The notes below the pieces were generated by a model. It did no database searches. It saw only the letters and a program-made list of their open reading frames with translations, and was not told where the DNA came from. Both the position numbers and the translations under genes were made by a program. 25,928 bases of DNA from a virus, in IMG/VR virus record IMGVR_UViG_3300031766_000055, positions 1 through 25,928 of that record; one strand, 5' to 3'. Positions within the stretch are counted from its first letter, which is position 1. Each line of letters opens with the position of its first letter. Positions 2,409-18,440 of the stretch are shown piece by piece.

Positions 2409-2895
2409 TGAACCCCTCCTTCTTTTTCTTCTCTGGCTGTAAATCTTCGTTTACTGCCCAAGCAGCTTTTGCGTCTGGTCCAATCATACCATCATAAGGG
2501 CAGGGCGTTCCAGCCATCATCATCGCATCAAACACACGCTGATCTTGACACATCGTCGATACTGCAGCAACTTTCATACCCATATCGTAGAGAGTCTTTG
2601 CATTCTTCAGCATCTCACAATTTTCATCAGTTACTTGTGTACCTGTAGATATGCCTAAAATCTGTGTTTGTATTGCACCGGCTACTCCGAACGTACACAA
2701 ATCACTGTTACTAGTGTTAATAGTGGGCGTAATTGCAGATGCTGGAGGCGATCTCAGTGTGGTAGTAGTGTCCGATTGAGTAGTAATCGTACTATTAGTA
2801 GTAGAGTCTGTACGAATTGTGTCATCAATAGGATCCTCCTCTGCCCATGAGGTTAGAGGAATTAATAGTAGTAGAACCGATAAAATTTTTACCAT
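2341..2895 (-). CDS. Exported Thr/Ser-rich protein with C-terminal membrane anchor
   Basis: This 184-residue protein has a signal peptide (residues 1-18, cut after SWA-EE). A low-complexity Thr/Ser stretch follows (about residues 25-62), then a compact domain with four cysteines (DLCTFG, ENCEML, TMCQDQ, TPCPYD). It ends in a Gly/Leu hydrophobic tail with seven leucines, preceded by a lysine-rich KKKK patch. The central domain (TLYDMGMKVAAVS followed by the C-x-D-x-R motif) resembles a hypothetical protein I associate with marine phages, but I cannot name a function. A C-terminal tail after a positive patch suggests a membrane-anchored exported protein. The start lies in the TAAAATGG junction with the upstream basic-protein gene (7-nt overlap). 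Confidence 0.75.
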   Translation of the reverse strand: MVKILSVLLLLIPLTSWAEEDPIDDTIRTDSTTNSTITTQSDTTTTLRSPPASAITPTINTSNSDLCTFGVAGAIQTQILGISTGTQVTDENCEMLKNAKTLYDMGMKVAAVSTMCQDQRVFDAMMMAGTPCPYDGMIGPDAKAAWAVNEDLQPEKKKKEGFSDSSKTLMGGAGVAGLLLLLLL

Positions 2896-3194
2896 TTTAC
2901 CTTATCCGCCCAATACGCGGCGGACATCTTGCCTTTCGCAATATTTTTTGCATGTCGAGCTTTAAAGGATGCTCTTTTCTTCTTCATTTTAGTACTTTCT
3001 CCTGCTTTAGGTTTTCCTGCGGTTTTCGCACCCTGCTGGCCGAAGCGAATTGTCTTTACTTTGCCGCCTGATTTTGCAACGACAATATGAGACTTCTTTG
3101 CATGGCCTGGAGTACGTTTTGGTTTATTATACCCAGAAACTCCCGCTCTTTTTAGTCGGGAATCTTTCTTCTTAACTTTTCTTTTTGCTGCCAC
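2889..3194 (-). CDS. Small basic conserved phage protein (DUF6321-like)
   Basis: The 101-residue product has about 30 Lys/Arg. The core (SGYNKPKRTP, then KSHIVVAKSGGKVKTIRFGQQG, then KARHAKNIAKGKMSAAYWAD) matches my memory of a family common in marine phages, often labelled DUF6321. That label is from memory and should be checked. The protein starts with GTG at 3194 and overlaps the upstream gene by 23 nt. It is the last of four consecutive genes for very basic proteins. It could bind nucleic acid or package DNA in the head, but no function is established. Lack of a signal peptide separates it from the exported genes downstream in the same transcript. Confidence 0.82.
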   Translation of the reverse strand: MAAKRKVKKKDSRLKRAGVSGYNKPKRTPGHAKKSHIVVAKSGGKVKTIRFGQQGAKTAGKPKAGESTKMKKKRASFKARHAKNIAKGKMSAAYWADKVKW

Positions 3195-3384
3195 TTTTTT
3201 TACCTAAACGTGTTCTCTCTGCTAACAGAGTCTTTGGTACACGCTTGCCCTGCTTGTAGAGGGTCGCAATTCTTTTCAAAACTCTTGCGAGCTTGGCACG
3301 GCGTGAACCAGTAGTACCACTAAGATACTTCTTATTCACGCCAGTACGCTTGTCTTTCACGGCTTTTCTACGTTTAGTAGGCAT
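3172..3384 (-). CDS. Small basic protein, unknown function
   Basis: This 70-residue, strongly basic protein contains GVNKKYLSGTTGSRRAKLAR followed by a helix-like segment and a Lys-rich tail (KKSGSKKKS). The pattern with KKYLSG then a run of basic helix recurs in small proteins of marine phages next to other basic proteins. I know no function. The ATG at 3384 follows directly after the stop of the preceding tiny gene, and the gene overlaps the next by 23 nt. Being about 40% Lys/Arg, it is likely to bind nucleic acid, possibly in the capsid. That is an inference from composition only. Confidence 0.75.
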   Translation of the reverse strand: MPTKRRKAVKDKRTGVNKKYLSGTTGSRRAKLARVLKRIATLYKQGKRVPKTLLAERTRLGKKSGSKKKS

Positions 3385-3513
3385 TTACTTCTTCTTCTTT
3401 CCTTTCTTCTTCTTTTTCTTCTTTATATATGCCAAAAATGCCGCTGGCATTTTACGCTTTCCGCCTTTTTTAGCTGCTTTTTTCTTACCCTTTTTCATGT
3501 AGCGAGTCATCAT
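3385..3513 (-). CDS. Tiny ultrabasic protein (42 aa)
   Basis: An open frame from ATG at 3513 (or the adjacent in-frame ATG at 3510) encodes 42 residues, more than half of them Lys or Arg. It has the form MMTRYMKKGKKK, then KMPAAFLAYIK, then a near-pure lysine tail. An AAGGA lies about 9 nt upstream, and the start overlaps the upstream stop as ATGA. The frame fills the gap between two other basic-protein genes exactly, with 0-4 nt junctions, which is strong evidence that it is translated. The central MPAAFLAYIK could be a short hydrophobic helix. Function unknown; nucleic-acid binding or condensation is a guess from composition. Confidence 0.65.
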   Translation of the reverse strand: MMTRYMKKGKKKAAKKGGKRKMPAAFLAYIKKKKKKKGKKKK

Positions 3514-3806
3514 TTCTTTTTCCTTAGATCTAAGTCATGCTTACGTGAACCACGTATAAAAGAATTGACACGAGCGTGGGCCCATCGAGCCATTGTCATG
3601 CCTGGTCTGGAACCGCTAGACAGAAAAGCACCTTGACCACGACGATATACCGCCATCAAAGTACGGAGTGACTTTCTACTCTTTTTTGCTTTCGCTGCTA
3701 GGGATTTTCTTACTGCGGCAGAAAGAGGTCTACGACTTCTTTTCGGGGCAGACTTACGTTTGGTAGGACGCTTGCGCGTTTTAGGTTTTCTTTTTCGAAC
3801 AGCCAT
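3510..3806 (-). CDS. Basic conserved phage protein (DUF5824-like)
   Basis: I choose the ATG at 3806 because GGAGAA sits about 7 nt upstream. An in-frame ATG at 3818 would add MEKF but has a poorer site. The 98-residue protein opens with a very basic arm (about residues 1-50). The conserved-looking core follows: YRRGQGAFLSSGSRPG and a helix with ARWAHARVNSFIRG, then DLDLRKKK. The RGQGAFLSSGSRPG core is one I associate with a widespread phage domain labelled DUF5824; this attribution is from memory. It is the first gene downstream of the 0.7-kb non-coding region and leads the basic-protein run. Function unknown. Confidence 0.8.
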   Translation of the reverse strand: MAVRKRKPKTRKRPTKRKSAPKRSRRPLSAAVRKSLAAKAKKSRKSLRTLMAVYRRGQGAFLSSGSRPGMTMARWAHARVNSFIRGSRKHDLDLRKKK

Positions 3807-3829
3807 GAATTTCTCCATAACCTTGCCTA

Positions 3830-4474
3830 ATAATTAAGGCTTTAGAATTAGGTCGGGGGCGCGTGAGCTTTAAGGCTGTGCGGTGAAAGCCACCCCCTGT
3901 GGTCGGTGAGGTGCAGTGCGAACGTGCGTCTTAGCTGCTCCATGAAGGTTTGCCCCACCTGTAAGAACTATTATTAATATTTCTCACATCTCAGATGCTG
4001 TCTTTGTGAGTACAGCTCCGACTAAACACCATTAATAAACCCTATCTCAAAGACTTATTAATGGTGACTGTTTTAAGTTACAATGTAAAACAGTCAAAAA
4101 CATTGCCTCCGTCGAGGAGTAGCCCTTGCGAGCGCACGATTTACCGGAACGCTTGGCTCGGGGAGATGTTAGCGTGTTCTCAAATCACGTTGCCCCTAGG
4201 AATCGGTACCAATTTAACGGGCCTCCTTTAGTTGTAGCAGTTTTTATCCAACATCGGACTGCAAACCGAAGAGCACTTTAACGTGTATACTAATACGTCT
4301 GCTTCCTTACCCCAAGTAGAAAAGGGAGTGAGTTTTCCAGCAACTACACTAAAGCTGTCTACGTGTTAACCACCTGTAGAGCGAGGTCATGGTAAGTTCA
4401 TGAAGACTGCCGTCCTTTTAGCTGGAGGAGGCATCCAGTGGATAGATTCAGGAAATTACTTCCCTCACTTCAAT
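3830..4474 (-). ncRNA. Candidate large structured RNA or long leader, no gene found
   Basis: About 650 nt separate the promoter at 4481-4509 from the first basic-protein gene, with no convincing frame on either strand. The DNA is unusually rich in inverted repeats. There are two perfect adjoining stems (12 bp, 4027-4038 with 4055-4066; 11 bp, 4065-4075 with 4086-4096). A GC-rich hairpin lies at 3855-3897, a nested stem at 4160-4196, CGAGC/GCTCG near 4129-4160, and CTGGA/TCCAG near 4421-4438. A long-range helix pairs 4226-4237 with 4344-4354 with one bulged base. Phages carry large ornate RNAs of unknown role (GOLLD and ROOL classes). I cannot assign this one to either, and I found no tRNA, RNase P or tmRNA signature. 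Confidence 0.4.
4027..4096. repeat. Two back-to-back perfect inverted repeats
   Basis: CACCATTAATAA (4027-4038) pairs perfectly with 4055-4066 around a 16-nt loop. TGACTGTTTTA (4065-4075) pairs perfectly with 4086-4096 around a 10-nt loop. The two stems share bases 4065-4066, so they stack directly or compete at the junction. No T-tract follows on either strand, so these are not ordinary intrinsic terminators. Confidence 0.85.
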
Positions 4475-4480
4475 ATAGAT

Positions 4481-4509
4481 ATTATACAAGTTGTAAGCAT
4501 GTAAGTCAA
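4481..4509 (-). promoter_or_regulatory. Sigma70-type promoter P1
   Basis: TTGACT (4509-4504), 17 bp, TATAAT (4486-4481) on the minus strand, preceded by AGTTC. The start point would be near 4474. It transcribes the non-coding region, then the basic-protein and exported-protein genes. Confidence 0.85.
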
Positions 4510-4519
4510 GAACTTTTTT

Positions 4520-7673: not shown

Positions 7674-8055
7674 TTTCTAGCTCCCTAAATACTAAAGCAG
7701 TTTTTGCGTTTGCACGCTTTTCTATCATGCCAGGTCTTGCGCGAGCGAGTCTAGTAAGATTATGATCTTTGAAGACTTTCATGTAGTTCTGCTTTTCTTT
7801 GTTCAGCTCATTGTTTCTTTGTGTGAGATTGGACATTGCTGCTTCTGATTTTTTTGCGTTTGCTTCAACCGCTTTAAGCGCTTGTTGCGAACTCTTAACC
7901 GCAGCTTCCATCTGAACTTGGTTTTCTTTGAGGGTTCTATTGTTGGCTTCCAGTTGAACAACTTCACTCTCTAGTTTAGAAACGGTAGTTACGTGATAAG
8001 CGTAGCCACCCCCTAGTGCACTTAAAGCACCCATTATCAGTATTATCTGAATCAT
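7501..8055 (-). CDS. Inner-membrane spanin (i-spanin, Rz-like)
   Basis: The 184-residue protein has an N-terminal membrane segment (residues 2-20, IQIILIMGALSALGGGYAY). A long coiled coil follows (about 25-95, SKLESEVVQLEANNRTLKEN and onward), the layout of Rz-type inner spanins. The C-terminal 50 residues are unusual: low-complexity Gly/Ser/Ala/Pro with GAGSKDNNSDGKGAS. This part is the region that overlaps the o-spanin frame, so its composition may reflect double coding. The ATG overlaps the endolysin stop (ATGA). Endolysin, i-spanin and o-spanin form a complete Gram-negative lysis set; I see no convincing holin next to it. Confidence 0.83.
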   Translation of the reverse strand: MIQIILIMGALSALGGGYAYHVTTVSKLESEVVQLEANNRTLKENQVQMEAAVKSSQQALKAVEANAKKSEAAMSNLTQRNNELNKEKQNYMKVFKDHNLTRLARARPGMIEKRANAKTALVFRELENDTKELMDADDGEPTTSGLPVDAKVAPEAPSGAGSKDNNSDGKGASSDIPTATASGN

Positions 8056-8495
8056 AGTTCTTCGAGACGTACCATGAGCCGTTCAGCTCGGTTAGTGACT
8101 TGCTTATGCCATCTACTATCACGGCCCTCAATTGCAGCTTTCGGCCAATCATGGTCTACTAATGCTGCACAGAAGTTCTTAAACTTTGATAAACGTGGTC
8201 GTCCCATATTGAACATCATGTTTACCACAATCTCTTGAACTTCTCCAGGAAATTGGTGCCATGCGTTTTCAAAAAGGACTTCACATTCGTCGATAGACGT
8301 ATCCAAATCTTTCTCAAACGCTTCCCAAACTCGCTCTTTCGATACCAAAGTACCGACCGGTTCATTATGTTCCGGATCGTTTTTAGTAACAAGATGGCCG
8401 ACACCAAAAGTAGCATACCCAAGATGGTCATTATATATTTTATACTCAACACCTTCGTCCACCTTTAAAGTTTCAAAAACACTTTCTCTATTCAC
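8052..8495 (-). CDS. Endolysin, T4-type lysozyme (GH24)
   Basis: This 147-residue muramidase aligns with T4 lysozyme. The catalytic triad appears as E14 (KVDEGVEYKIY), D23 (YNDHLGY) and T29 (YATFGVGHL), with the same 9 and 15 residue spacing as E11, D20 and T26 of T4. The helical C-terminal lobe is recognisable by NMMFNMGRPRLSKF and SRWHKQVTNRAERL. It cleaves the peptidoglycan glycan between MurNAc and GlcNAc. There is no signal peptide or signal anchor, so a holin is needed for export. It starts with GTG at 8495, with GGAG about 6 nt upstream, and is followed by both spanins. Confidence 0.95.
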   Translation of the reverse strand: MNRESVFETLKVDEGVEYKIYNDHLGYATFGVGHLVTKNDPEHNEPVGTLVSKERVWEAFEKDLDTSIDECEVLFENAWHQFPGEVQEIVVNMMFNMGRPRLSKFKNFCAALVDHDWPKAAIEGRDSRWHKQVTNRAERLMVRLEEL

Positions 8496-10731: not shown

Positions 10732-10760
10732 TTGACATAAAATCTAAAAGCTTGTATAAT
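10732..10760 (+). promoter_or_regulatory. Sigma70-type promoter P5
   Basis: TTGACA (10732-10737), 17 bp, TATAAT (10755-10760), plus strand. It is divergent from P4, with 38 bp between the -35 boxes. It leaves a 5' leader of about 104 nt before hsp20. Confidence 0.9.
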
Positions 10761-16042: not shown

Positions 16043-16987
16043 ATGAATAAACTTCTTGATGCTGCTTCAACAGCATATTACGAAGGCACGCCTTTTATGT
16101 CGGATGTAGAATTTGATATTCTTGCCGAAGAATCAGGCTATGTTGCTGTGGGCCATACAGGGGACTTTGAGATACAACATCTCTTTCCTATGTATAGCCT
16201 GCAAAAAGTATTTGTTGGAGAAGAACATCCTCCCTACGATCATGCGAAGGGAGCTACTATTGTTAGCCCCAAGCTAGACGGCGCAGCAGTATCTTTAGGC
16301 TACTGGAACGGTGATCTTATTATTGCTCTTACAAGAGGTGATGGTAAGAAAGGCCGTGACATTACTGAAAAGATGCGTTCGCTGGTGCCTGAAACTATAG
16401 ATCGTATGGGTGCAGTACAGATAACTGGAGAAGTTGTAGCTCCTGAGACAATTCCTAATGCTAGGAACTATGCGTCAGGGGCTTTAAATCTTAAGTCTAT
16501 AGATGAGTTTCTCACTAGAGAGATTCGTTTCGTAGCTTATGATATTCAACCTTCCTACCACCAAAGTTGGACAGAGGACTTAGCAGATCTTGCTTCGGCA
16601 AACTTTGATACAGTTACTCAGTCCAATTGGACGGGTTATCCACAGGATGGACTCGTATTTCGTGTGAACAATCGTGCGAAATATGAAGAGATGGGTTATA
16701 CATCTCACCATCCTCGTGGTGCTTTCGCATTAAAAGAGCGTCCTGCAGGAGTGAGTACACAACTGTTAGATGTGGTATGGCAAGTGGGGAAGTCGGGAGT
16801 AGTTTCCCCTGTTGCTATATTAGAGCCTATCTTGATTGGTGAAGCTACAGTTTCTCGTGCTACATTACATAATATGAGGTACATTAATGAACTGAATCTA
16901 GAGATTGGCTGTACTGTCGAAGTAATTCGATCTGGTGAAATAATACCAAGAGTCGTAAGACGAATTGAAGGAGAAGCGTGTGTTTGA
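16043..16987 (+). CDS. NAD+-dependent DNA ligase, adenylation and OB domains (split gene, part A)
   Basis: The 314-residue protein holds the N-terminal part of LigA. A short Ia domain (AYYEGTPFMSDVEFD, residues 11-25) binds NMN. The nucleotidyltransferase domain has catalytic K77 in SPKLDG, TRGDGKKGRDIT, the GEVVAP strand, DGLVFRVN and FALKERP. The OB domain (VVWQVGKSGVVSPVAILEPI to IRSGEIIPRVV) closes the protein. It ends exactly where the zinc finger begins in ordinary LigA; the remaining domains are encoded at 17688. A split ligase with A and B subunits is known in phage T5. The two parts must associate to seal nicks. GGAAA lies before the ATG, and promoter P8 is immediately upstream. Confidence 0.95.
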   Translation: MNKLLDAASTAYYEGTPFMSDVEFDILAEESGYVAVGHTGDFEIQHLFPMYSLQKVFVGEEHPPYDHAKGATIVSPKLDGAAVSLGYWNGDLIIALTRGDGKKGRDITEKMRSLVPETIDRMGAVQITGEVVAPETIPNARNYASGALNLKSIDEFLTREIRFVAYDIQPSYHQSWTEDLADLASANFDTVTQSNWTGYPQDGLVFRVNNRAKYEEMGYTSHHPRGAFALKERPAGVSTQLLDVVWQVGKSGVVSPVAILEPILIGEATVSRATLHNMRYINELNLEIGCTVEVIRSGEIIPRVVRRIEGEACV

Positions 16988-17687: not shown

Positions 17688-18440
17688 TTGAAAGAAATTA
17701 TAGCACCCAAACAATGCCCAAGCTGTGGCTTTAGCCTTGAGTGGGTTAACGACTTGTTATTTTGCTATAACTCTACTTGTGAGTCTAAAACTCATAAGTT
17801 ATTGGAGCACTTTGCTTCTACGTTGAAAATTAAGGGCATGGGGCCATCAACTATTCAAAAGCTCAGGATAACTACAATTCCTCAAATATATGAACTGAGC
17901 TTAGAGGAGATGGCAGAGTCCCTTAATTCTGAAAAACTAGCTGCAAAACTGTTTGATGAAATTCAGGATTCAAAGAAAGCTAGTCTTTCTGAAGTCTTAC
18001 CTGCATTTTCGATTCCACTAATCGGCAAAACAGCGTCAAGTAAGTTGTGTGCAGTAGTTAGCTCTATTTATGACTTAAATGACGAGGCTTGTACAGCAGC
18101 GGGGCTTGGACCTAAAGCAAGCAACAATTTGCTAGACTGGTACCATTCATATTTCCTCTGCGAGTACAAATGGTTACCTTTCTCATTTGAGTCTAGAGAA
18201 GTTACTTCTGTAATAGAACCAAAAGGCGTAGTGTGTATCAGTGGCAAACTGACGTCTTTTAAAACAAAAGCAGAAGCTGAAAAAACTCTTATTAGTAGGG
18301 GCTTTCTTGTAAAGTCTTCGGTAACTAAAGAAGTTACCCACCTTGTTAATGAGAGTGGTCTGGAAAGTTCCAAGACCAAAAAGGCAAGAGATAGTGGAGT
18401 CTCTATTATCACAAATCTAAATGAATTTATAGGAAATTAA
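17688..18440 (+). CDS. NAD+-dependent DNA ligase, zinc finger, HhH and BRCT domains (split gene, part B)
   Basis: The 250-residue protein is the C-terminal part of LigA. A four-cysteine zinc finger comes first (C10-x2-C13, C26 and C31; CPSCGFSLEW). Helix-hairpin-helix repeats follow (about 40-160, including LKIKGMGPSTIQKL and FSIPLIGKTASSKL), then a BRCT domain (about 176-250, KGVVCISGKLTSFKTKAEAE). It begins at the natural domain border of LigA and so complements part A. It starts with TTG 17688, with GGAG 7-8 nt upstream. These domains hold the DNA while part A catalyses the reaction. Its separate promoter may alter the ratio of the two subunits. Confidence 0.93.
   Translation: MKEIIAPKQCPSCGFSLEWVNDLLFCYNSTCESKTHKLLEHFASTLKIKGMGPSTIQKLRITTIPQIYELSLEEMAESLNSEKLAAKLFDEIQDSKKASLSEVLPAFSIPLIGKTASSKLCAVVSSIYDLNDEACTAAGLGPKASNNLLDWYHSYFLCEYKWLPFSFESREVTSVIEPKGVVCISGKLTSFKTKAEAEKTLISRGFLVKSSVTKEVTHLVNESGLESSKTKKARDSGVSIITNLNEFIGN

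Follow-up and report, generated by a model that had tools for sequence, protein, structure and literature searches.

GOLLD and ROOL are RNAs of phages and prophages whose function is unknown. They are often found near tRNA islands and they assemble into RNA-only cages (PMC12286853). Expression of GOLLD goes up during lysis, and whether cages are common among large natural RNAs is a question that the authors of the same work call undetermined (PMC12286853). Two-piece tmRNAs also occur in marine phages (PMC9004378). In this work we describe a locus that, from its sequence and that of its relatives, very likely encodes a conserved structured RNA (3849-4474, minus strand; ~630 nt) in a 25,928-nt viral contig, the whole of which we call the window. 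The virus is marine and infects bacteria. Our best reading is that the RNA represents a family of large and ornate RNAs from phages that is new and absent from Rfam, one that resembles GOLLD and ROOL in kind and is a member of neither.

The original prediction had likened the region to GOLLD and ROOL, had seen no specific match, and had proposed a search with the Rfam models, these two included. That search was run and no family matched, in keeping with this view. With Rfam 15 there was no match at gathering scores and nothing sensible at E-values up to 10. The GOLLD model (RF02032), when searched by name, gave no match even at an E-value of 10; the corresponding control gave a match in 5 of 14 genomes, none of them above the cut-off. 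The ROOL model (RF03087) also gave no match by name, a result that is weak alone, the control having given no match either. A literature search found no paper that describes the RNA. The features of the locus are as follows, in the order of transcription.

4481-4519, minus strand: promoter AAAAAAGTTCTTGACT-17-TATAAT (motif match; one of eight alike in the window)
3849-4474, minus strand: structured non-coding RNA (homologues; covariance models R1, 3' domain, and R2, core)
4451-4464, minus strand: 5' hairpin GGGAAGUAAUUUCC (a hairpin is here in all types, with differing sequences)
4408-4438, minus strand: pseudoknot PK1, CUGG / CCAG with UGCCUCCU / AGGA(C)GGCA (covariation and shuffles)
4299-4347, minus strand: candidate pseudoknot PK2, 5' of a conserved AGACG (by eye)
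4237-4269, minus strand: candidate pseudoknot PK3, UCGG / CCGA and GCAGU / ACUGC (invariant)
4192-4222, minus strand: hairpin GCCCGUUAAAUUGGUACCGAUUCCUAGGGGC with the loop palindrome GGUACC (conservation)
4066-4105, minus strand: candidate pseudoknot PK4, CAAUGU / ACAUUG and GACUGUUUU / AAAACAGUC (common to the L117 type only)
4027-4066, minus strand: 12-bp perfect hairpin (compensatory changes relative to the L117 type; the L088 type lacks it)
3965-4026, minus strand: decayed remnant of a ~50-aa ORF (comparison with L117, L118 and L120)
3905-3959, minus strand: helix GGUGGGG / CCUCACC with an inner GCAG / CUGC hairpin (covariation)
3855-3897, minus strand: closing helix GGGGG / CCCCC around UUAAAGC (covariation)
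3510-3818, minus strand: basic protein (Pfam DUF5824), the next gene downstream in the same direction

The RNA would have its own promoter, of the host's sigma-70 type, and be transcribed leftward from it. The predicted minus-strand promoter is indeed present, with a -35 box TTGACT (4509-4504), a spacer of 17 bp and a -10 box TATAAT (4486-4481), and agrees with the consensus at 11 of 12 bases. All homologues examined have a promoter of the same type immediately before the RNA. The eight such promoters of the window, on both strands, all have TTGAC and TATAAT, with an A-rich stretch ahead of the -35 box; they are found at 4509, 5983, 6736 and 10693 (minus) and at 10732, 14820, 15987 and 17633 (plus), and the window's left gene block is divided from its right one by the divergent pair 10693/10732. 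Syntenic relatives carry a comparable set. The ends of the RNA given here are inferred, the 5' end from the -10 box and the 3' end from the last conserved helix.

The region had also been described as lacking a convincing reading frame, and this holds: within 3819-4519 the minus strand has no ORF of at least 40 aa and 11-19 stops in each frame, and the plus strand has ORFs of 51-56 aa only. Its folding energy relative to shuffled sequences is unexceptional alone (z -1.2 for the minus strand and -1.5 for the plus strand), and overall the z-scores of the RNA are ordinary to moderate (-1.2 to -3.5). It is the existence of homologues with covariation, not the folding energy, that lifts this region above chance.

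The homologues were reached through the basic protein downstream. A protein 85% identical to it led to a contig (L002) in which the gap upstream of the basic protein aligns block-wise to the window RNA, and sequence patterns built from the aligned blocks retrieved two groups. In total, 20 other viral contigs carry the RNA at the syntenic position, and so does one contig that had been assigned to a bacterial MAG. The viral contigs are of two divergent types: the L088 type is ~500 nt long (17 contigs) and the L117 type is ~750 nt long (three contigs: L117, L118 and L120). Looser pattern scans for distant members returned the same contigs and chance matches only. The model R1 detects the window and the known homologues, and has no match in 29 basic-protein loci of other phages; other phages with relatives of the basic protein have neither the gap nor the RNA at the locus. 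Among annotated phages, nucleotide similarity was confined to a basic-protein gene of Pelagibacter phage HTVC111P, and the L002 RNA showed none. The RNA makes up the longest non-coding gap of a 59.8-kb relative, where it is preceded by the same type of promoter. The contig binned with a Bacteroidetes MAG (UBA10340; L121, 1-6324) comes from a phage of the L088 type, and its MAG assignment is probably a binning artefact.

Comparison of these sequences suggests a fold with a pseudoknot domain at the 5' end, a central core that is highly conserved and a 3' domain with covariation, which would be arranged around a fast-evolving insert. Compensatory changes are seen in PK1, in the 3' domain and in one hairpin. 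The counts given below come from three independent lineages only, so many of the compensated cells share few events. PK1 is of the H-type; 83 of 84 cells are paired across seven distinct sequences and 9 of the 12 pairs show compensatory changes, in an alignment with one gap set by hand for a bulge. For the ungapped part, the tool's own count is 100% paired with double changes in 5 of 8 pairs. The second stem has 55 of 56 cells paired, compared with at most 28 when slid, and each of its pairs has changed on both sides somewhere among the seven sequences. Furthermore, when a PK1 model is made from the other types, the window and L117 fit it perfectly; among 100,000 shuffled versions of the window segment, 2 do so. 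In the 3' domain (3855-3959), 98.4% of cells are paired, compared with 37-57% when slid, five pairs are doubly compensated, and none of 500 shuffles matches it in cells paired, doubly changed cells or covariation score. The proposal of a large structured RNA is thus supported, both by covariation and by a pattern of conservation that tracks no reading frame.

The core (4191-4298) is 95.7% identical between types, compared with 66.9% for the BFD gene and 71.2% for upstream coding DNA. Its hairpin scarcely varies, and is therefore conserved but uninformative for covariation; PK3 gives no covariation either way because it is invariant. PK2, which was found by eye, can be seen clearly in L088 and in L117; in the window it is tentative and without covariation support. 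The sequence GGUACC is in the loop of the core hairpin in every member. This loop is a possible self-pairing site, the pairing being strong on paper, with a short intramolecular stem that competes with it in some members.

At least six inverted repeats had been predicted, and we find eight pairs. These include both of the perfect ones, of 12 bp (4027-4038/4055-4066) and 11 bp (4065-4075/4086-4096, part of candidate PK4), which are joined as described. The emphasis that had been placed on this pair was misdirected: both lie within the variable insert, and what is conserved is PK1, the core and the 3' domain. A proposed long-range helix (4226-4237/4344-4354) can be formed in the window, as 6+5 pairs with a bulge, and competes with a candidate pseudoknot; no counterpart was found in the relatives, and we have dropped it as an element of the RNA for that reason.

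The insert also bears on what the product of the locus is. In the L117 type it hosts a ~50-aa ORF with a ribosome-binding site, located between the core and the 3' domain. The L088 type is without this ORF and the window has only its remnant, and the RNA domains that flank the insert persist in both. Mainly because the ORF is decayed or missing where these domains are kept, we take the RNA, not the peptide, to be the conserved product. No intact copy of the peptide was found elsewhere in the ORF-less phages, in the records searched.

L118 carries a second structured RNA (7675-8440, minus strand) with the same type of promoter and a folding-energy z of -5.9. It hosts an ORF that is 51% identical to the peptide of the first RNA, is followed by a strong terminator and then a separate promoter, and carries ACAGTTTTGTACTTGAT three times in tandem close to the 5' end. 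It matches neither the 3' model, the core model nor Rfam, and no nucleotide similarity was found in annotated phages, nor any sequence match elsewhere. This second RNA suggests that a separate transcript is possible for RNAs with such a layout. Permuted tmRNA genes are also found in the three contigs of the L117 type:

L118, 579-877 and 6532-6902, minus strand: two different permuted tmRNA genes
L117, 4629-4927: permuted tmRNA gene (viral contig)
L120, 2901-3199: permuted tmRNA gene (viral contig)

Each is downstream of an ORF for a BFD-like [2Fe-2S] protein, in contigs that also hold a homologue of the window RNA. No tRNA was found in the window or in the 18 loci scanned, of which three have a permuted tmRNA, and no tmRNA (tRNA-like domain, tag reading frame) was found in the window or within the RNA in the relatives. 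Because of the permuted tmRNAs that accompany the RNA in some relatives, a search for what it acts on would best begin with the translation machinery.

The window encodes a DNA polymerase, a DnaB-like helicase, a primase and a split NAD ligase. The closest polymerases are from large Aeromonas and Vibrio phages (~43% identity), and the NAD-dependent DNA ligase is split over 16043-16987 and 17688-18440 (plus strand), adjoined by a D5-like regulator. A lysozyme-spanin set is upstream of the RNA, and the order of lysis genes, RNA and basic proteins is the same in the window, L117 and L118. Small proteins rich in lysine and arginine (DUF5824 and unknown families) are encoded in a row at 2889-3818 (minus strand), and such a run is also present in other marine phage contigs. 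The gene after the RNA encodes a basic protein in the window and a BFD-like [2Fe-2S] protein in the others (L088, L117). No intrinsic terminator is seen after the window RNA, therefore co-transcription with the basic-protein genes is likely.

The original prediction had offered, as an alternative, a very long regulatory leader to the basic-protein and exported-protein operon. Such a 5' leader would act in cis on the operon that follows, which encodes basic proteins in the window and the BFD protein in relatives. There is no terminator before the operon, the downstream start codon is just ~20-50 nt past the last helix, and the ribosome-binding site of the L088 type might be masked by a short ACCU/AGGU helix. 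However, the proposal is weakened by a downstream gene that differs between lineages and by the lack of any conserved pairing that would occlude the ribosome-binding site. The RNA is also much bigger and more elaborate than most leaders, and the terminator and separate promoter that follow the second RNA of L118 speak against it too. We consider a leader rather improbable, and a stand-alone RNA that acts in trans somewhat probable and the likelier of the two.

Much less probable is an mRNA for the embedded ~50-aa membrane peptide, of which the RNA would chiefly be the untranslated part. The ribosome-binding site of the ORF and its counterpart in the second L118 RNA are what such an mRNA would have, but the absence of the ORF from one type and its decay in the window, with structure kept on both sides, are difficult to reconcile with this. 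Less probable again, and in our view very close to dismissed, is that the region is intergenic DNA which evolves fast and forms hairpins by chance, or a DNA element, for example a replication origin. The modest folding energy (z near -1.5) and the variable middle part of the window region are as expected of such DNA. That said, covariation in the pseudoknot and the 3' domain contradicts it, as do an orientation that is fixed relative to the promoter and a core conserved above the flanking genes. On balance, we lean towards a large phage RNA with its own promoter that acts in trans. It would be made during infection and may work, like GOLLD and ROOL, as a compact and perhaps self-associating RNA, to which the loop palindrome would contribute.

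A more speculative and, we think, unlikely extension is that this is an unrelated lineage of self-assembling phage RNA, in which monomers joined through their GGUACC loops would form an RNA-only particle during infection. If this were true, some phages would carry two such RNA genes beside permuted tmRNAs. A separate family of RNAs that is comparable in size and has pseudoknots, a palindromic loop and a variable insert allows the generality of cages to be tested directly. It is also of interest that compact phages from the sea devote ~0.5-0.75 kb to an RNA with a core conserved above their proteins.

The window RNA resembles GOLLD in that it is large and phage-encoded, with a strongly conserved domain and a less conserved part; in that the variable part can host an insert, tRNAs in some GOLLD RNAs and an ORF in relatives of the window RNA; and in that it has a self-complementary loop and, in some relatives, tRNA-like genes nearby (PMC12286853). 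It differs from GOLLD in being shorter, with other sequence and helices and no covariance-model match, and the neighbours of its relatives are tmRNAs rather than tRNAs, with neither in the window. With ROOL it shares a similar length (659 nt for the solved ROOL), a phage origin, multiple pseudoknots and the lack of a known protein partner (PMC12286853), whereas there is no covariance-model match and no tRNA island near the window RNA or in the 18 loci scanned. The permuted tmRNAs are likewise multi-pseudoknot RNAs of marine phages (PMC9004378), but they are absent from the window, and L117, L118 and L120 hold both RNAs separately.
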